From the NCBI GenBank assembly GCA_027067975.1, contig JAMOUS010000201.1, forward strand, positions 1 through 33,320: a stretch of DNA of 33,320 nucleotides, read 5' to 3'. Each line of letters opens with the position of its first letter. Positions within the stretch are counted from its first letter, which is position 1. Positions 4,185 to 29,694 of this stretch are shown piece after piece. Source of the DNA: Bacteroidales bacterium. Lineage in GTDB: Bacteria; Bacteroidota; Bacteroidia; Bacteroidales; VadinHA17. The position numbers and the translations under genes are program-made. Below the pieces are notes generated by a model. The model did no database searches, was not told the origin of the DNA, and was given only the letters and a program-made list of their open reading frames with translations.

Positions 4185-5039
4185 TCAGAACTTGCCGAGA
4201 CGTTTCAGGTCGGAGGGCAAGAGGCCGTCAGGTTTCTTTTTGGAGACGAGGTGGTAGTTGAAATAATACATTTCCCCCTGGGGATCGAGGATCATTTTGT
4301 ACACCCTGCCCTCCTCGGCGTTCTCGCCAGGCCCCACCTTAAAGAGGAAGGCCATCCTGGGATCGGGATTTTCGAGGGCTTTATCGATCTCATCGCGGCT
4401 CACCAGACGGAAAGGATGCGGATAAAGGGCTTTGATGGCGCCGGCATCGCGTAAATCGGGCGCCAGGTCTTCGCGAGCCAACCACAATTCCTTCTCCGCC
4501 AGGTCTTGCATGTTCACATTGTAATATTTCAGATAGCGGAATTTCAGCGAGGGGTTACCGGGATGCTGCAAGATATTGGTGACATGACGCTGAATGAAAC
4601 GAAGGATCACCTCCATCTTGGCCACATAACCATCATCTTCGGCGCCGGAATAAGCAAGCGGGAAAGAACAGAACTCCGGCATCTTCGAAAGGCTGTTGAC
4701 AGGATCCCCCAGAAGAAGGTTGAGGAAATCGTAATTCACCCCCGCCCGGTCTTTTTCAAAAGCCGTGGAAGTGAGCATGAGGAACGAATAGGAGGGATCC
4801 TTCATCCTTTTCTTGAATTCGTCGGTGTTGATAAACTCATAGGGAGTGATGTTCCACACCTTCTCGACGGCATCTTTCACCACGGCATTGAAGAGGGAGA
4901 AAGGATCATCTTCCAGAACGACACAGGTGGTGGAAGCTTTGAAAGCCTTCATCTGTGCTTCGGTAGGGAAAGGCCCCTGGGCCCACAGGAGGAGGGGAGA
5001 GGTCAGGAACCAAAGAGCGGAGAACACGATCTTCTTCAT
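4185..5039 (-). CDS. Secreted protein of unknown function
   Basis: This 284-aa protein has a clear signal peptide (residues 1-21, MKKIV start, hydrophobic core, AQ at the cleavage region), so it is exported. No membrane helix or enzyme motif is visible in the mature part. It begins with an [13 protein letters not shown]-like stretch ([15 protein letters not shown]), has the segment NITPYEFI near 63-70, and ends in basic, Lys-rich sequence. From memory it resembles an uncharacterised family of Bacteroidales exported proteins of similar length; I cannot name a domain. It lies 45 nt downstream of another secreted-protein gene, probably in the same transcript, and 70 nt before hisS. The hisS proximity is probably incidental because hisS has its own promoter-like box. 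An envelope-associated role is inferred only from export. Confidence 0.8.
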
Positions 5040-5084: not shown

Positions 5085-5825
5085 TCATTTCCCCACCGGC
5101 AGGTACACCGGGTTCCGTTCGTTAAACTTCCGGATGTACAAAAAACGCAATTGTTTCCGTTTGGCAGGCCCCAAACGGACATATTCGTCATAAAGCTCAG
5201 GGTCGCGCATCAGGGCCACCTCGACACTCTGGTTGGAATATTCCATGATCTTGCCGGTCTCGAAATCCAGGATAAATTGACGCATCTCCGTACGTTCGTA
5301 GGTAGTGGCCGTATAAGCGGGTGGGTAATAATAGCCGTAAGCCGGATAATAAAAACTGCTGTAAGGGTTGTAATAGCGGGTATCGAGAACGGTCCGTGTG
5401 CCGACAAAATGGCATATCCCCCCGACAATGGTGATCCGGTTGAAATTGCCATCGACCTGTACATAAAGGATGCCGTTGCGGGAATATCCCCATATATTGT
5501 CCCGTTTCACCTGGTGACGGTACCCCTGGTCGTCGTAAAAGGTGATGATATCATGAGAGAGCACCTTGTCAAAAAATGCCTGATCGTTCAGAGGTACGAT
5601 CGTCACAATATAGGCTTTGGGGATGGGATCGTTCTGTTTCACCTGGTCGAAACTCAGGAAGATTCCGTCTTTGAAGCGGAAATCCCTGTTGAGCACGGCC
5701 ATGTTCTCACTCTTTGATTTAGGAGAGTGTTCCGTAACGAACAACTCCTGGGCCGTGGCCGCTCCTGCCAGAGCGAACCACAGTACGAGAGACATCCGCA
5801 ATCTCCGTTCATGTAAGCTTTTCAT
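5085..5825 (-). CDS. Secreted protein of unknown function, Tyr-rich loop
   Basis: This is a 246-aa protein with an N-terminal signal peptide: a basic start, a hydrophobic stretch at about residues 12-22, and probable cleavage after ATA before QE. The mature part looks largely beta-type. It has a Tyr/Pro-rich stretch near 150-170 (YYNPYSSFYYPAYGYYYPPAY) and then FILDFETGKIMEYS, and ends in a basic tail. No known domain is recognised. Start choice is well supported: AAGGAGG lies 8 nt before the ATG (plus-strand 5834-5840), a textbook Shine-Dalgarno sequence, unusual in this phylum. The next gene follows after 45 nt, also secreted and unknown, suggesting a two-gene unit. It is divergent from the hybrid kinase at 5985 across 159 nt. 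Confidence 0.8.
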   Translation of the reverse strand: MKSLHERRLRMSLVLWFALAGAATAQELFVTEHSPKSKSENMAVLNRDFRFKDGIFLSFDQVKQNDPIPKAYIVTIVPLNDQAFFDKVLSHDIITFYDDQGYRHQVKRDNIWGYSRNGILYVQVDGNFNRITIVGGICHFVGTRTVLDTRYYNPYSSFYYPAYGYYYPPAYTATTYERTEMRQFILDFETGKIMEYSNQSVEVALMRDPELYDEYVRLGPAKRKQLRFLYIRKFNERNPVYLPVGK

Positions 5826-5984: not shown

Positions 5985-7733
5985 GTGAAGACGGATCGTT
6001 TTTCCCGAATAGTCAACCTTTTGTCACTGGGTTACCAAGGTCCCAGGGTCGACGAATATCATCCCAAAATCCTGGTCATCAACCTGTTATCCACCTTTGT
6101 CATCATTATGCTTCCGGTGGCGCTGCTCTTCACTGCGATAGAACACTCTTCCTATCTTTCCACACTCTATTTTCTAAGCGGCGTGATCGGGGTCTACCTT
6201 CTCAATGTCCTGCTTTTCAAAAAGTTACAAAACTACCATCTTTTTGCGCTCATCTACTTGTCAGGCACCATTCTTATCGGAATCATTTTCCTTTTTTCGC
6301 TGATTCGTGAGAACTGGATCGTCTACTGGGCATTGGTATATCCCATGCTGGCGATTTATCTGCTGGGAGAGAAGAAAGGCAATTATTTTTCTCTGATCCT
6401 CCTTTTCATCCTGATCCTTGTGCTTTTCCTGTGGATTTCACCGGAGCACACCGATATATACATGCCGCTGAGTCACAAGATCCACATATTGTTCATTTAC
6501 GGGTTCCTGTGGTTGATGGGGAACATTTACAATTGGTACCTTGACCAGTCGTTGCAGAAAGTCCAGGAAGCCAATGAACTCATCCGCAAAGAGAACGAAA
6601 AGAAAGACCGTTTTCTTACGCAGCTTTCGCACCAGATCCGTACACCGCTCAACGACATCGTGGCGTTTGAGAGTCTTCTGAAGAAGACCCGTATCGCCGA
6701 GGAAGACCGGGAAATGTTCGAAATGATCATGGTGTCGACCACCAATCTGATTCAGGTGGTCAACTCAATCACCGAGACGGGAGCGTTCACCACTCCCATC
6801 AAGCAGGTGAGCCACGAACCTTTCCGTCTCCATGAGGTGTTCGATCAACTGAGAGAACTCAGCAACCGGCAATACGGTGAGAAGCTGAAGGTCACCTTCC
6901 CCTCCCGGGAGGAGGCGAATGTGGTGTTACGAGGCGATCGGGTGATCCTGAAGCAGATCATCATAAACGTCCTGGAAGGGATCTTCCGCAACCTTCACCA
7001 GAATGTCACCCATACGGATGTCTCCATCCATTTGGAAGAACAACGGGATAAGATGCTGCTGACACTGCAGTACCAGTGCGATCAGGCTCCATTTGACGAA
7101 AAACGTTTCCGCCATCTGACCGTTCTGGCCGACCAGGGTGTCCGGGTACTGAGCGATCCGGAAGACTTCCAGTACATCAACCTGCTGCTGGCCCGGAGCC
7201 TGGCCCATCAGTTGGGCGGCTCGCTCGAACTCACCCGCCTCGACGACGGCAAAACACCTTGTCTGAAGATCGTTCTGCCTTTCGGAAAAGTGGAAGAACC
7301 CCGGAAGGAAACTCCTGCAAAACCGGTCGCCAGCATCCCCACCTCCCAGAAAAAGGCGCTGAAAGATGCGATTGTCCTGCTGGCCGAGGACAACCCCATC
7401 AACCAGAAGATCGTCAAACTGAGCCTCCAGAAACATGTCAAACAGATCGACATTGCCCAGGACGGCAAAGAAGCGCTCGATCTGTACGGAACGACGCGTT
7501 ATGACTTCATCCTCATGGACATCCAGATGCCCAAAATGGACGGCATCACGGTCACCCGAAAGATCCGCGAGATAGAAGCCTCGACCAATACCCATACGCC
7601 GATCATCGCCATCACAGCCAATGCCATGCTGGGCGACCGGGAGACATGCATCTCTTCGGGGATGGATGAATACATCAGCAAACCCTTCCAGATCCAGACC
7701 CTCATCCGCATTATGAAAGAACTGCTCAAGTAA
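5985..7733 (+). CDS. Membrane hybrid histidine kinase with degenerate ATPase domain
   Basis: This is a 582-aa protein. Residues about 28-185 hold some six hydrophobic helices with little periplasmic sequence. A short coiled coil (187-207) leads to a HisKA domain with phospho-acceptor H216 in LSHQIRTPLN. The HATPase region (about 285-433) is abnormal: the N-box Mg-binding Asn is replaced (N328-V-L-E-G332), the DxGxG box reads D366-Q-A-P-F, and the Gly-rich G2 box is absent. The C-terminal receiver domain (about 461-582) is intact, with E468/D469, D512 in LMDIQMPKMDG, T544 and K566. It may therefore be a poor or inactive kinase working in a phosphorelay with another protein, although this is inference from motifs. 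GTG 5985 is the start: a stop codon (TGA 5952-5954) lies just upstream in frame with no ATG between. It overlaps the converging SpoIIE gene by 8 nt. Confidence 0.9.
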   Translation: MKTDRFSRIVNLLSLGYQGPRVDEYHPKILVINLLSTFVIIMLPVALLFTAIEHSSYLSTLYFLSGVIGVYLLNVLLFKKLQNYHLFALIYLSGTILIGIIFLFSLIRENWIVYWALVYPMLAIYLLGEKKGNYFSLILLFILILVLFLWISPEHTDIYMPLSHKIHILFIYGFLWLMGNIYNWYLDQSLQKVQEANELIRKENEKKDRFLTQLSHQIRTPLNDIVAFESLLKKTRIAEEDREMFEMIMVSTTNLIQVVNSITETGAFTTPIKQVSHEPFRLHEVFDQLRELSNRQYGEKLKVTFPSREEANVVLRGDRVILKQIIINVLEGIFRNLHQNVTHTDVSIHLEEQRDKMLLTLQYQCDQAPFDEKRFRHLTVLADQGVRVLSDPEDFQYINLLLARSLAHQLGGSLELTRLDDGKTPCLKIVLPFGKVEEPRKETPAKPVASIPTSQKKALKDAIVLLAEDNPINQKIVKLSLQKHVKQIDIAQDGKEALDLYGTTRYDFILMDIQMPKMDGITVTRKIREIEASTNTHTPIIAITANAMLGDRETCISSGMDEYISKPFQIQTLIRIMKELLK

Positions 7734-9075
7734 GGCGTGAAGTGGCCAGAGGATCAAGCCCCATGATTAGGACATCGTCCACCTGCCGGTAATCTCCCTT
7801 CCAAAAGGCAAAACTTTCGTAAAGAATCTGTTTCTGCCTCTCCATGGGCAATTCATGCACCGACAACAGCAGATGGCGGAAACGCCGGTACATGTATTTC
7901 TTCCCGCTGGGCCCGCCGAACTGATCGGGAAAGCCGTCGGTAAAGAGATACAGTTTGTCGTTCTCCTCAAGGGGGATGACATGGTTGGTGAATTCCTCTC
8001 CGCTCTCCGACTCCCCCAGTCCTACTGACACACGATCGCCTTTGAACTCAAGCAGTTTGTTCTCACGCACCAGATACAACGTATGGAATGCTCCTGCAAA
8101 CTCCAGGATTTTCTTGCCCCGGTCCAACGTACAGAAACTGATGTCCATGCCATCCTTGAGCAGCAGATCCTCCTCTCCGCGGCTGAAGGTATTGCTGATC
8201 CCGAAGTTCAGGATGTTGAGGATCTCTCCGGGATGGACAAGTCCCTGGTCGTTGATGATTTTGTCAAGGATCTCGAACCCGATCATAGACATGAAGGCGC
8301 CGGGCACACCATGGCCCGTACAGTCGGCCACGGCAAAAAAGATCCTTTCACCTTTGGCATAGAGCCAGTAGAAGTCGCCACTGACGATATCCCGCGGCAT
8401 ATACAGGATGAACGCCTCAGGAAAATGGCTGTGAAAGTAGTAGTCTGAAGGCAGCAGGGCCTGCTGGATCTTGCGGGCATAGCGGATGCTGTCGGTAAGG
8501 TCCTTGTGCATGGTGCTGAGCTGGTCGCGCTGCTTCTCCACCTCCTTGCCGATACGCTCTTTCTCTTTGAGGATCTGATTGGTCCGACGCAAGGTACGGG
8601 TACGATAGCGGAGATAGAGATAAAAGAGGAGGAGGACCAACATCACCAGGATAAGCTGGAAAGCTCCGGTGGTATGGAAAGGGATGGTGATAACGAGGGT
8701 GGTGATCTTGTGGGGTTCCGTCCAGCCCCCTTCGGAACGGGGATACCTTACCCACAAGGGGTATCGCCCACCTGAAAAGCCGGTGAGATAAGCGGAACGC
8801 CCCGTATGGAGGGTGTGCCAGTCGTCATCCCTTCCCAGGCGATATTGCAGCAGACCTTCATGAAAAAGGTCGGAGGAGAATTCTATCTCCAGCAGGGAAT
8901 GGGTGCGCAGACGCAGACGCACCAGGGTATCCGGTGGCACCTCCTTCCATCCGGCAGCGGTGAGGTAACGTACCCTCACCGGCATCTCACCTCCGGGAGG
9001 GGATGCCGTCATCCTCACCATGCTCCCCAACAGAAGCATCAAAACCGTGATTATCCCACCCCAGCTTGCACGCAT
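7726..9075 (-). CDS. Membrane SpoIIE-type Ser/Thr phosphatase with Y_Y_Y-like sensor
   Basis: This is a 449-aa protein. An N-terminal hydrophobic stretch (about 5-24) exports a periplasmic domain whose pattern (QYRLGRDDDWHTL, then SGGRYPLWVRYP) resembles the Y_Y_Y domain found after beta-propellers in two-component sensors; the propeller itself is missing. A membrane helix (about 137-157) and a coiled coil (162-195) lead to a PP2C/SpoIIE catalytic domain (about 200-445). The metal-binding acidic motifs are present: SGDF (D234), ADCTGHG (D251), DGMD (D311), FTDG (D380) and VDDV (D433/D434), so activity is expected. Such RsbU-like phosphatases usually dephosphorylate anti-sigma-factor antagonists; no such partner is visible here. 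A TTG at 9078 extends the frame by one codon, but ATG 9075 is the natural start. It follows the rplQ terminator, so it needs its own promoter, which I did not identify. Confidence 0.92.
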   Translation of the reverse strand: MRASWGGIITVLMLLLGSMVRMTASPPGGEMPVRVRYLTAAGWKEVPPDTLVRLRLRTHSLLEIEFSSDLFHEGLLQYRLGRDDDWHTLHTGRSAYLTGFSGGRYPLWVRYPRSEGGWTEPHKITTLVITIPFHTTGAFQLILVMLVLLLFYLYLRYRTRTLRRTNQILKEKERIGKEVEKQRDQLSTMHKDLTDSIRYARKIQQALLPSDYYFHSHFPEAFILYMPRDIVSGDFYWLYAKGERIFFAVADCTGHGVPGAFMSMIGFEILDKIINDQGLVHPGEILNILNFGISNTFSRGEEDLLLKDGMDISFCTLDRGKKILEFAGAFHTLYLVRENKLLEFKGDRVSVGLGESESGEEFTNHVIPLEENDKLYLFTDGFPDQFGGPSGKKYMYRRFRHLLLSVHELPMERQKQILYESFAFWKGDYRQVDDVLIMGLDPLATSRLT

Positions 9076-9159
9076 CAATTTATGAGATCAACCTACCCTT
9101 CCTGTAAAGATGGAAATATTCCCGAATATACACAACCGCTCTCCTGCCTGCGGAGAAAA

Positions 9160-24145: not shown

Positions 24146-26251
24146 CTATACTTTGATGATCCCTTTGATGTTCTCGATCACTTTCTCCGCGATCTCCGGC
24201 GGCACCGGCTCGTAATGGGAGAACTCCATCGACGAGGTGGCACGCCCTGAGGTGATGGTACGCAACACCGTCACATATCCGAAGTTCTCCGCCAGCGGCA
24301 CCTTGGCCTTGATGACCCGTGCACCGGCCTTCGACTCCATCCCTTCGATGCGGCCGCGCCGCTTGTTGAAGTCGGTGATCACATCGCCCATGTACTCCTC
24401 GGGGGTCACCACCTCCACCGACATGATCGGCTCCAGGAGGATGGGCTCGCCCTTGGGGGCAGCGTTCTTGAAGGCATGCTGGGCCGCGATCTGGAACGAG
24501 AGCGAGTCGGAGTCGACAGGATGGAACGATCCGTCCTTGACCACCACCTTCAGGTTGTCCATGGGGAAGCCGGCCAGCGGGCCGTTCTGCATGGCGATCT
24601 CGAACCCTTTCTGGATGGCCGGCATGAACTCCTTGGGGATGTTGCCGCCCTTCACCTCGTCGATGAACTGCAGGCCGGTGACACCTTCGTCGGCCGGACC
24701 GATCTCGACAACGATGTCGGCAAATTTCCCTTTTCCCCCGGTCTGTTTCTTGAACACCTCGCGGTGTTCGACCGTCTTGGTGAGGGCCTCCTTATAGGCC
24801 ACCTGCGGCTGCCCTTGGTTGCACTCGACACCGAACTCACGCTTGAGGCGGTCGACGAGAATCTCCAGATGGAGTTCCCCCATGCCGCTGATGATGGTCT
24901 GCCCCGACGCCTCGTCGGTCTTCACCTTGAAGGTGGGATCCTCTTCGGCCAGCTTGGCGAGGGCCGCACCCAGCTTGTCGACGTCGGCCTGTGTCTTGGG
25001 CTCGATGGCCACGCCGATGACCGGCTCGGGGAAGGTCATCGACTCCAGCGAGATGGGCCGCTGGAAGTCGGTGATGGTATCACCGGTCTTGATATCTTTC
25101 AGTCCCACGGCCCCGCAGATGTCGCCCGCCTCGATCACGTCGCGGGGGTTCTGCTTGTTGGCATGCATCTGATAGAGCCGGTTGATACGGTCTTTCTTGT
25201 TGGTACGGGGGTTGAGCACGGTCATCCCCGGGGTGATCTTCCCCGAATAGACGCGCAGGTACACCAGGCGGCCCACATAGGGGTCGGTGGCGATCTTGAA
25301 GGCCAGGGCGGCCAGCGGCGCCTTGGGGTCGGGATCACGGGTGATCTCCTCGCCCGTCTTGGGATTGATGCCTTTCACCGGCCCGATGTCGAGAGGGCTG
25401 GGCAGGTAGGCGACGATGGCGTCGAGGAGACGCTGCACCCCCTTGTTCTTGAAAGCCGACCCGCACATCACCGGCACGATGGTGCCGTCGATGGTGGCAC
25501 GGCGGATCACCGCGGCCATCTCATCGGGGGTGATGGAGTCGGGATCTTCGAAATACCGCTCGAGCAGCTCGTCGTCTTTCTCGGCGACGGCTTCGACCAG
25601 CTTGTTGCGCCACTCGGCCGCTTCGTCGGCCAGCTCGGCGGGAATCTCCTCCAGGCTGTACTTCGTGCCGAGGGTCTCGTCATCGTACCATACCACCGCC
25701 TTGTTCTCCATCAGGTCGATGACCCCGCGGAAGGAGTCCTCCGATCCGATGGGAATCTGTACCGGCACGGGATTGGCCTTGAGCTTTTCGCGGATCTCGT
25801 TGACGACACCGAAGAAGTCGGCACCCACGCGGTCCATCTTGTTCACGAAGGCGATGCGCGGCACACCGTACTTATCGGCCTGGCGCCATACGGTCTCCGA
25901 CTGGGGTTCCACGCCGCTCACGGCACAGAAGACGGCCACGGCACCGTCGAGGACGCGCAGCGAGCGCTCCACCTCAACGGTAAAGTCGACATGGCCGGGA
26001 GTATCGATGATGTTGATCTTGTATTCTTCGCCCTTGTATTTCCAATAGGCCGTCGTAGCGGCGGAGGTGATGGTGATCCCCCGCTCCTGCTCCTGCACCA
26101 TCCAGTCCATCTGGGCAGCACCGTCGTGCACCTCACCGATGCGGTGCGTGATCCCCGTATAGAAGAGGATACGCTCCGTCGTGGTGGTCTTGCCCGCATC
26201 GATGTGGGCCATGATCCCGATGTTCCTCGTATATTTCAGACGGTCTGTCAT
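24146..26251 (-). CDS. fusA: Elongation factor G (canonical)
   Basis: This 701-aa translational GTPase drives mRNA-tRNA translocation and, with RRF, ribosome recycling. All G motifs are standard: AHIDAGKTT (15-23), RGIT with T60 in switch I, DTPGH with catalytic H87, and NKMD (137-140). The domains II-V follow, including the conserved [19 protein letters not shown] of domain III and [21 protein letters not shown] at the C-terminus. The length is normal for EF-G. It sits between rpsG (27 nt) and rpsJ (24 nt). A divergent paralog with altered G motifs is encoded 1.3 kb away at 27544, so this copy is the housekeeping one. Confidence 0.99.
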
Positions 26252-27543: not shown

Positions 27544-29694
27544 ATGAAAACGTACCAGACGAAACAGATCCGCAATGTAGTGTTGTTGGGGAACGCCGGT
27601 TCGGGGAAGACCACGCTGGCCGAAGCGATGATGTATGCCGGCGGGGTGATCGACCGGAAAGGAAGTGTCGACCAGAAGAACACGGTCTCCGACTACAACC
27701 CCATCGAGCTGGAGCAGGGCAGTTCGGTGTTCTCCACCGTATGCTACACGGAATACCAGGACCACAAGATCAACTTCCTCGATGCACCGGGTCTTGACGA
27801 CTTCGCCGGCCAGGCGGTGGCGGCCATCCATCCGGCCGATATGGCCCTGATCCTCGTCAATGCCCCCAACGGCGTGGAGGTGGGTACGGAGATCCACTAC
27901 CGCCACACCGACGAGCGCAACAAGCCCGTCACCTTCGTCATCAACGGCCTCGACCATGAGAAGTCGAACTACGAGAAAAGCATCGAAACCCTCAAGGAAA
28001 GTTTCGGCAACAAGATCGCCGTCGTGCAGTTCCCCGTGAACGAGGGCGACACCTTCAACGCCATCGTCGATGTGCTGAAGATGAAGATGTACAAATATGC
28101 CGGCGGCAAGACCGAGGTGCTGGACATCCCCGATGAATACCGCGACAAGGCGGAAGAGCTGCACAACGAACTGGTGGAAAAGGCGGCCGAGAACGACGAA
28201 GGACTGATGGAGCTCTTCTTCGAGAAAGAATCGCTCGACGAGGAGGAGATGCGCAAGGGCATCAAGGAGGGGCTACTGCGCCGCGACCTGATGCCGGTGT
28301 TCTGCACCTCGGCCAAGAAAGATGTCGGCATCGACCGGCTGCTGGAGTTCATCATCAACACCGCCCCGGCCCCCGACGAGATGCCGGCACCCGTCAACTC
28401 GAAAGGGGAAGAGGTGCCTTGCGACCCCAAAGGGCCCGTGTCGCTCTTCGTCTTCAAAACCTCCATCGAAGAACATATCGGCGAGGTCAACTTTTTCAAG
28501 GTGATGTCGGGAGAGCTGAAAGAGGGCATGGACCTCATCAACACTTCGGTGTCGGCCAAGGAGCGCATCAACCAGATCTTTGTCACCGCCGGCAAGAAGC
28601 GTGAGAAGGTGCCCTCGATGATGGCCGGCGACATCGGCAGCACCGTCAAGCTGAAGAGCACCAAGACCAACCACACGCTCAACGAGCCAGGACAGGACTG
28701 GACCTGGCCGGCCATCGAGTATCCTTCCCCCAAATACCGCACCGCCATCAAAGCGGTCAACGAATCGGACGACGAAAAGCTCGGCGAAGCCCTCTCGCGT
28801 TTCCACGAGGAGGATCCCGCCGTGCTCATCGAATATTCGAAAGAGCTCAAGCAGATCATCATCCATGGGCAGGGAGAACATCACCTGAACATCCTGAAGT
28901 GGCATCTCGACAACATCTTCAAGATCGAGACCCAGTTCATGCCGCCGAAGATCCCCTACCGTGAGACAATCACCAAGGTGGCGCAGGCCTCGTACCGTCA
29001 CAAGAAACAGACGGGCGGTGCCGGCCAGTTCGGCGAGGTGCACCTGGTCATCGAACCGTACCGCGAGGGGGCACCCGACCCCGACACCTACAAGGTGAAC
29101 GGCAAAGAGATCAAGGTGTCCGTACGCGACAAGCAGGAGATCGATCTCGACTGGGGCGGCAAGCTGGTCTTCTACAACTGTATCGTCGGCGGCGCCATCG
29201 ACGCCCGCTTCCTACCGGCCATCCTCAAGGGGATCATGGAACGCATGGAAGAAGGGCCGCTCACCGGCTCCTATGCCCGTGACATCCGTGTGGCGGTCTA
29301 TGACGGCAAGATGCACCCGGTCGACTCGAACGAGATCTCGTTCAAGCTGGCCGGCCGGAATGCCTTCAGCATGGCCTTCAAAGAAGCCGGCCCGAAGATC
29401 ATGGAACCCATCTACCTGGTGAACGTCTGGGTGCCCAGCGACCGCATGGGCGACGTGATGAGCGACCTACAGGGACGCCGCGCCGTGGTGATGGGCATGA
29501 CCAGCGAAAAAGGCTTCGAGAAGATCACCGCCAAGGTGCCGCTGGCAGAGATGAACAAGTACTCTACCACCCTCAGCTCACTCACCAACGGACGGGCTAT
29601 CTACACCATGGAATTTTCCGAATACCAGCAGGTACCGGCAGAGATCCAGGAAGAACTGCTCAAAGCCTACGAGGCCGAACAACAGGAAGACTGA
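27544..29694 (+). CDS. fusA2: EF-G paralog (EF-G2-like translation factor)
   Basis: This is a 716-aa EF-G-family protein with the full domain I-V layout, sharing EF-G features such as GQGEHHLNILK, RHKKQTGGAGQFGEV and EFSEYQQVPAEIQEELL near the end. The GTPase motifs are altered: the P-loop reads GNAGSGKTT (16-24), switch I RGIT is replaced by Q58-G-S-S61, DTPGH is DAPGL with L84 where EF-G has the catalytic His, and NKMD is NGLD (134-137). The nucleotide-binding lysine K22 is kept. These changes fit the Bacteroides EF-G2, reported to support translocation without GTP hydrolysis and to be needed under nutrient limitation and for gut colonisation; this function is inferred by homology. The gene has its own promoter-like sequence, a terminator, and lies head to head with rpsL. 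Confidence 0.93.
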   Translation: MKTYQTKQIRNVVLLGNAGSGKTTLAEAMMYAGGVIDRKGSVDQKNTVSDYNPIELEQGSSVFSTVCYTEYQDHKINFLDAPGLDDFAGQAVAAIHPADMALILVNAPNGVEVGTEIHYRHTDERNKPVTFVINGLDHEKSNYEKSIETLKESFGNKIAVVQFPVNEGDTFNAIVDVLKMKMYKYAGGKTEVLDIPDEYRDKAEELHNELVEKAAENDEGLMELFFEKESLDEEEMRKGIKEGLLRRDLMPVFCTSAKKDVGIDRLLEFIINTAPAPDEMPAPVNSKGEEVPCDPKGPVSLFVFKTSIEEHIGEVNFFKVMSGELKEGMDLINTSVSAKERINQIFVTAGKKREKVPSMMAGDIGSTVKLKSTKTNHTLNEPGQDWTWPAIEYPSPKYRTAIKAVNESDDEKLGEALSRFHEEDPAVLIEYSKELKQIIIHGQGEHHLNILKWHLDNIFKIETQFMPPKIPYRETITKVAQASYRHKKQTGGAGQFGEVHLVIEPYREGAPDPDTYKVNGKEIKVSVRDKQEIDLDWGGKLVFYNCIVGGAIDARFLPAILKGIMERMEEGPLTGSYARDIRVAVYDGKMHPVDSNEISFKLAGRNAFSMAFKEAGPKIMEPIYLVNVWVPSDRMGDVMSDLQGRRAVVMGMTSEKGFEKITAKVPLAEMNKYSTTLSSLTNGRAIYTMEFSEYQQVPAEIQEELLKAYEAEQQED

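Follow-up and report, generated by a model that had tools for sequence, protein, structure and literature searches.

This study concerns a gene on a 33,320-nucleotide stretch of DNA from a Bacteroidales bacterium (VadinHA17; assembly GCA_027067975.1, contig JAMOUS010000201.1, positions 1 to 33,320 of the forward strand), referred to below as the window. Positions 5985–7733 of the forward strand translate as an uninterrupted frame of 582 amino acids with a GTG start, laid out, from translation and Pfam matches, as a hybrid histidine kinase with a membrane region, a DHp (HisKA) domain, a degenerate CA (ATPase) domain and a receiver. By its sequence, the protein looks like a membrane pseudo-kinase, in which the ATP boxes have been lost and the receiver is intact.

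All features of the gene lie on the forward strand. The hydrophobic membrane region (residues 25–185, positions 6057–6539) has about six helices, judged by eye without a predictor count, and gives a weak MASE6-like Pfam match (E 6.9e-5, under the Pfam cut-off). The DHp domain follows at residues 207–262 (6603–6770; Pfam HisKA, E 1.2e-8) and has in its H-box, SHQIRTPLND, the potential phospho-acceptor H216 (codon 6630–6632). The degenerate CA domain spans approximately residues 278–437 (6816–7295), where alignment and models predict a histidine-kinase ATPase fold from which the ATP boxes are absent; Pfam finds no HATPase_c domain in the protein at E<=0.1, and a genome-wide HATPase_c search returned 24 places, none of them within this gene. 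The receiver (residues 464–576, 7374–7712; Pfam Response_reg, E 4.4e-27) carries E468, D469, D512, T544, Y563 and K566, and so presents the acidic pair, the phospho-acceptor Asp (D512, codon 7518–7520), the Thr and the Lys on a receiver fold.

A sequence-only reading of this gene had proposed a hybrid kinase with a canonical His and receiver pocket and a degenerate ATP site, and re-translation places H216, G332, DQAPF (366–370), D512, T544 and K566 exactly where that reading had put them. Its description of the ATP site also agrees with alignment to 68 distant hybrid kinases taken from public genomes. The N-box Asn column is Asn in 68/68 of these and Gly in this protein (Gly332, 6978–6980) and its two closest relatives. 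At the G1 box, the glycines are absent from DQAPF (7080–7094), but the column of the G1 Asp aligns with C365, one residue before D366. The glycines of the G2 loop are likewise missing from residues 391–399 (7155–7181), where the loop reads D394, F395, Y397 and N399.

The loss of the ATP boxes extends to the relatives of this protein and exceeds what chance would give. In an aligned set of 47 family members the G1 and G2 patterns occur in 0/47 and 0/47, versus 65/68 and 55/68 of the distant hybrid kinases; 15 nearer kinases, ten from genomes of the same order and five from the same genome, match in 15/15 and 13/15, and the five from the same genome match the G1, N-box and G2 patterns in 5/5, 5/5 and 4/5. 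Across all 90 members read, neither the strict nor the loosened G1 and G2 patterns are found in the ATPase domain; the loosened DxGxG pattern matches just twice, at residues 104 and 198 (zero-based) of two members, in both cases before HisKA. The loss, for which the sequence-only reading had proposed an alignment of orthologues, is thus conserved in 90/90, and displacement rather than loss of the boxes, which it had named as one finding that would overturn it, is rejected. Its proposal that ordinary autophosphorylation is impossible and that a partner kinase is needed is accordingly well supported by sequence, as 0/90 members keep G1 or G2.

The N-box has worn less evenly, the full pattern being present in 1/47 members and the Asn itself retained in 32/90. 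HATPase_c still matches 9/47 members at E<=0.01, which shows a worn ATPase domain and not an unrelated insertion. On a tree of DHp and receiver columns, with no CA columns, the 47 members form one side of a branch with a Shimodaira-Hasegawa-like approximate likelihood-ratio (SH-aLRT) support of 100 against 29 outgroup kinases. Because G1 and G2 are absent from all 90 members and the 47 form one clade, the loss is a family trait and not local decay, and a single old loss of the ATP site is the simplest history suggested by these alignments. We found no canonical kinase inside the family: the ten kinases read for this purpose (G1 in 10/10, G2 in 9/10) all fall outside it on the tree. These ten come from the 41 matches of a 16-member profile, 30 of which belong to the family, and are all but one (G156 C60) of the other 11. 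As to sampling, six of 53 kinase-like frames were left unaligned, namely the two halves of a split gene in genome G022 and fragments in G087, G060, G052 and G079, and seven distant sequences of 77 references were not used (L041, L046, L054, L070, L089, L100, L109). The 47-member tree took 14 of the 68 distant kinases and included column 216, and the 90-row tree was built without that column; both trees are quick ones with some long branches, and outgroup kinases L007 and L248 were retained though they lack strict H-box and G2 patterns.

The family is spread over the order. A single-sequence search gave a match at E<=1e-60 in 17/40 genomes, the window's own counted, and a profile of the 47 members matched 25/40 at 1e-90, with 26 matches, one being a canonical kinase (G029 C6, L252) and one, in G036, left unread. 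The 16-member profile's 41 matches, at 1e-90, fall in 38/149 genomes of the order, and the 47-member profile at 1e-105 matched 75/393 sampled genomes of the order (own genome included), a lower bound given that three candidates were scored per genome. At the level of the class, with four candidates scored per genome, only one genome besides the window's own was found among 295, and the family is therefore likely restricted to the order. Members from many families of the order have long open frames. A clade of eight has frames of 446–507 amino acids with a shorter N-terminal region, and since in four of the eight the profile match continues upstream through stops, these frame ends are unsure. 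Among individual genomes, the gene of G022 (L122:7415-9142) is split by an in-frame TAG, that of G012 (L167:8616-10139) has a run of glycine/aspartate-rich repeats of about 70 residues inserted immediately behind the N-box position in its degenerate ATPase domain, and G002, a close relative of the same genus rated 100% complete, gave matches neither to the pseudo-kinase nor to the exported protein encoded divergently from it.

Conservation differs sharply between the domains. E468, D469 and D512 are kept in 90/90 members, and T544, Y563, K566 and P567 in 89/89 readable there. Position 216 is His in 76 of the 90, and Tyr in 10, Arg in 2, Phe in 1 and Asn in 1; replacement of the His took at least 7 changes on the 90-row tree, 3 of them forced by well supported branches. 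Mean pairwise identity among the 47 members is 63% in the receiver, 41% in the DHp, 22% in the CA remnant and 16% in the membrane region, and in the 68 distant hybrid kinases, a broader sample, 43% in the receiver, 48% in the DHp and 38% in the CA domain.

Ratios of non-synonymous to synonymous substitution rates (dN/dS) follow the same order. Many pairs are saturated at synonymous sites and give no ratio; in the three least saturated pairs, all His-bearing, dN/dS is 0.016, 0.030 and 0.019 for the receiver and 0.21, 0.18 and 0.08 for the CA remnant, the third of these pairs having a proportion of synonymous differences of 0.54–0.65. By these values purifying selection acts on the ATPase remnant, as far as the usable pairs show. 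In pairs of members without the His, whose synonymous sites are near saturation, the ratios are 0.03–0.11 for the receiver (five pairs), 0.21–0.29 for the DHp (three) and 0.20–0.64 for the CA remnant (five), so that, on these estimates, DHp and CA relax in His-less pairs and the receiver does not. Positions that the family conserves and 82 canonical kinases do not number 5 in the DHp and 18 in the receiver, and 6 of the 18 lie at residues 472–485, in receiver helix 1. Receiver helix 1 and the DHp are the surfaces by which the two domains bind each other, and the family-specific residues on them are compatible with retained receiver–DHp docking, in cis or with a common partner.

An AlphaFold2 model of the cytoplasmic part from 71 sequences (mean predicted local distance difference test score, pLDDT, 79; predicted template modelling score, pTM, 0.51) is confident in the receiver and most of the ATPase remnant, and a model from three close sequences and no canonical kinase has nearly the same secondary structure (mean pLDDT 70). 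The sequence-only reading had proposed such a prediction to see whether an ATP pocket survives: the CA remnant is predicted to retain the histidine-kinase (Bergerat-type) ATPase fold, and a helix modelled at residues 392–409, in place of the G2 loop, would close the pocket. Six aligned members of the same genus share at this place QGVRV, then EDFQYI, then N/S and LL, a common motif that hints at a function of the remnant itself within that genus. In Foldseek searches, RetS of Pseudomonas aeruginosa was the best match of the DHp-CA part of the three-sequence model, and ShkA and GacS ranked above it for the larger model; VIA-align 2 gave Z scores of 11–15 to the solved kinases listed, the highest being shared by RetS and plant phytochromes. 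The match to RetS is not specific, as GacS, HK853 and plant phytochromes come near it in score. Spo0B and ChpT were not among the best 50 matches listed in each of the three structure comparisons, which excludes nothing.

On the reverse strand, overlapping the pseudo-kinase gene by 8 bases and convergent with it, lies a gene for a SpoIIE-family (PP2C-type) phosphatase of 450 amino acids (7726–9078; Pfam), with SGDF and DxxGHG motifs, beyond which the window continues with L17 and rpoA. On the other side, two conserved proteins without a Pfam match are also encoded on the reverse strand, a divergent one of 246 amino acids (5085–5825), with a signal-peptide-like N-terminus by eye, and a second of 284 amino acids (4185–5039), next to hisS. 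A convergent SpoIIE gene lies within 500 bases in 29/47 members, in 26 of those at −25 to +49, and a divergent, apparently exported protein within 400 bases in 31/47; SpoIIE is not found within 500 bases in 18/47 (one at a contig end). Genomes G008 and G019 (rated 84 and 74% complete) have neither pseudo-kinase nor phosphatase at the otherwise kept site and no family match at 1e-90, and in G013 the pseudo-kinase is present and SpoIIE is missing from the site. The 18 unlinked members and G013 weaken the linkage as proof of function, and synteny beside ribosomal genes may be passive. All 29 of the SpoIIE-adjacent members keep the His, and none of the 6 His-less members among the 47 has SpoIIE next door (0/6), but since both traits may simply follow the tree this association is only a lead. 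The phosphatase itself varies from about 270 to 1150 amino acids between genomes, the long forms apparently having an extra N-terminal part. A partner-switching module with SpoIIE was considered and set aside: seven SpoIIE matches occur in the genome, and nothing in it matches HATPase_c_2 over the cut-off, so that no partner can be named. The genome's only HPt match (G000 contig C302, L262:5754-6594) is encoded immediately upstream of what looks by eye like a STAS-like protein, beside clpB, and such a pair could possibly link a phosphorelay to partner switching. Elsewhere in the window, genes for EF-G and a Bacteroid-type EF-G2 stand near each other (24146–26251 and 27544–29694).

If the protein does not use ATP, can dispense with its His and has a phosphorylatable receiver, the phosphate must come from elsewhere. 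As the His is replaced in 14/90 members with the receiver kept, a phosphatase or phosphotransfer hub working through the His, as the sequence-only reading had suggested, cannot be what all family members have in common, although it may be an additional activity in this member, where H216 is retained; to judge from these patterns of conservation, the common function is phosphorylation of the receiver, rather than autokinase activity or relay through the His. In RetS, which has a degenerate HATPase domain without G-boxes, the second receiver takes phosphate from GacS, according to excerpts of PMC5992135, and this precedent leads us to favour, as moderately probable, a membrane-tethered RetS-like acceptor whose receiver would be phosphorylated by another histidine kinase or an HPt protein. 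Candidate donors are the genome's canonical hybrid kinases and its one HPt match. Once D512 had been phosphorylated, the T544–Y563 pair would alter how the receiver docks, whether on the DHp/pseudo-ATPase scaffold of the same protein or on a partner. The output could be removal of phosphoryl groups from a partner kinase, in the way that RetS drains GacS, or else a signal that the scaffold gives by a change of conformation; where retained, H216 may also serve as a phosphatase or back-transfer site, which the family as a whole does not need. A bolder version, which we put forward tentatively, is a two-component element in reverse: the kinase-derived scaffold would be the output of its own receiver, and cytoplasmic kinases would use D512 to signal across or at the membrane, the partner being, for instance, the SpoIIE phosphatase or the divergent exported protein, without any need for ATP binding or even a His.

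Several observations weigh against the acceptor model. The His is kept in 76/90 members, and dN/dS for the DHp, at 0, 0.10 and 0.02 in the three least saturated pairs, shows good conservation, so that a chemical role of the His is probable in the majority of these members; the docking faces suit a relay equally well; the other 12 of the 18 family-specific receiver positions lie outside helix 1, scattered across the domain; the T–Y pair is also common in ordinary receivers and does not single the model out; and the DHp is modelled with low confidence (pLDDT about 50–66). A rival reading is a histidine phosphotransferase of the Spo0B, ChpT or PhyT kind, in which H216 takes phosphate from the protein's own D512 or from another receiver and passes it on, the pseudo-ATPase serving only to dock receivers. 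The H-box present here, the His of 76/90 members and of every SpoIIE-adjacent one, the predicted helical G2 loop, which recalls the ChpT lid replaced by extra helix turns (PMC3433190, excerpts), and the precedent of PhyT for transfer by a His (PMC5898713, excerpts) speak for it, but the replacement of the His with the receiver untouched, and the constraint on the receiver that persists in His-less pairs, mean that it does not hold for the whole family; for this member it could be true, though we consider the reading rather unlikely.

The protein might instead be an inhibitory heterodimer partner, its DHp and pseudo-ATPase binding and blocking a canonical kinase and its receiver being secondary. 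RetS, the best Foldseek match of the three-sequence model, does inhibit autophosphorylation of GacS, according to the partial text consulted, but that match is unspecific, and a heterodimer predicts the opposite of what conservation shows, where, of the cytoplasmic parts, identity is highest in the receiver and lowest in CA; we regard this as improbable. A kinase still active through unusual or displaced ATP motifs could call on the predicted survival of the fold, the N-box Asn of 32/90 members and the residual HATPase_c matches, and is nevertheless very unlikely given that no member has a G1 or G2 pattern in its ATPase domain and that the G2 place is predicted to be helical here. Least credible of all is a decaying gene without function, to which the broken gene of G022, the empty sites of G008 and G019 and a CA dN/dS of up to 0.64 in one His-less pair might point. 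We reject it on the low ratios of both CA remnant and receiver in the least saturated pairs, though many pairs are saturated and CA is looser in His-less pairs, and the long open frames across the order also stand against it.

Pseudo histidine kinases with degenerate ATPase domains are already known, namely RetS, PhyT, ChpT, DivL and the subfamily II ethylene receptors, to our knowledge mostly as single cases. A search of open-access PMC papers found none describing one family, distributed across an order, that retains its receiver and has lost the His repeatedly; PMC9981736, seen in excerpts, was used for receiver classes and supplied no deciding test here. With the ATP site lost in all 90 members read, the His lost repeatedly and the receiver kept, the family amounts to a natural experiment that asks where in a hybrid kinase the signal resides. 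It also cautions against counting proteins with HisKA and a receiver as kinases by their domain labels.

The known systems differ in architecture: the sensor region of RetS is of the 7TMR-DISM type, some subfamily II ethylene receptors carry a receiver, ChpT and Spo0B are not known to have a membrane region or a receiver, and DivL has Tyr instead of His and no known fused receiver. In our protein Pfam at E<=0.1 gives no RetS-type sensor region, only the weak MASE6-like match in the membrane region. Like RetS, it is a hybrid kinase with a degenerate HATPase domain without G-boxes and an intact receiver, and RetS cannot autophosphorylate; unlike RetS, which has two receivers (both points from excerpts of PMC5992135), it has one, together with the weakly MASE6-like membrane region, and no GacS-like partner is known here. 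The plant subfamily II ethylene receptors (PMC7994261, excerpts) are eukaryotic, with another ligand and output. PhyT of Sphingomonas melonis is also membrane-bound, with a degenerate ATPase domain and a conserved DHp His, but has an HRxxN-type DHp motif and transfers through its own His, and no receiver is mentioned in the excerpts of PMC5898713 consulted. ChpT, which according to excerpts of PMC3433190 binds no ATP, and Spo0B share the DHp and an ATPase-like domain; in both the His is the working residue, whereas in this family it is absent from 14/90 members, though present in this one. DivL of Caulobacter is a likeness of another kind, the core of a kinase put to new use in sensing whether a receiver is phosphorylated (PMC4211667, excerpts). 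A Tyr-for-His change is not found in the protein described here, which has the His, but Tyr takes the place of the His in 10/90 members of the family.
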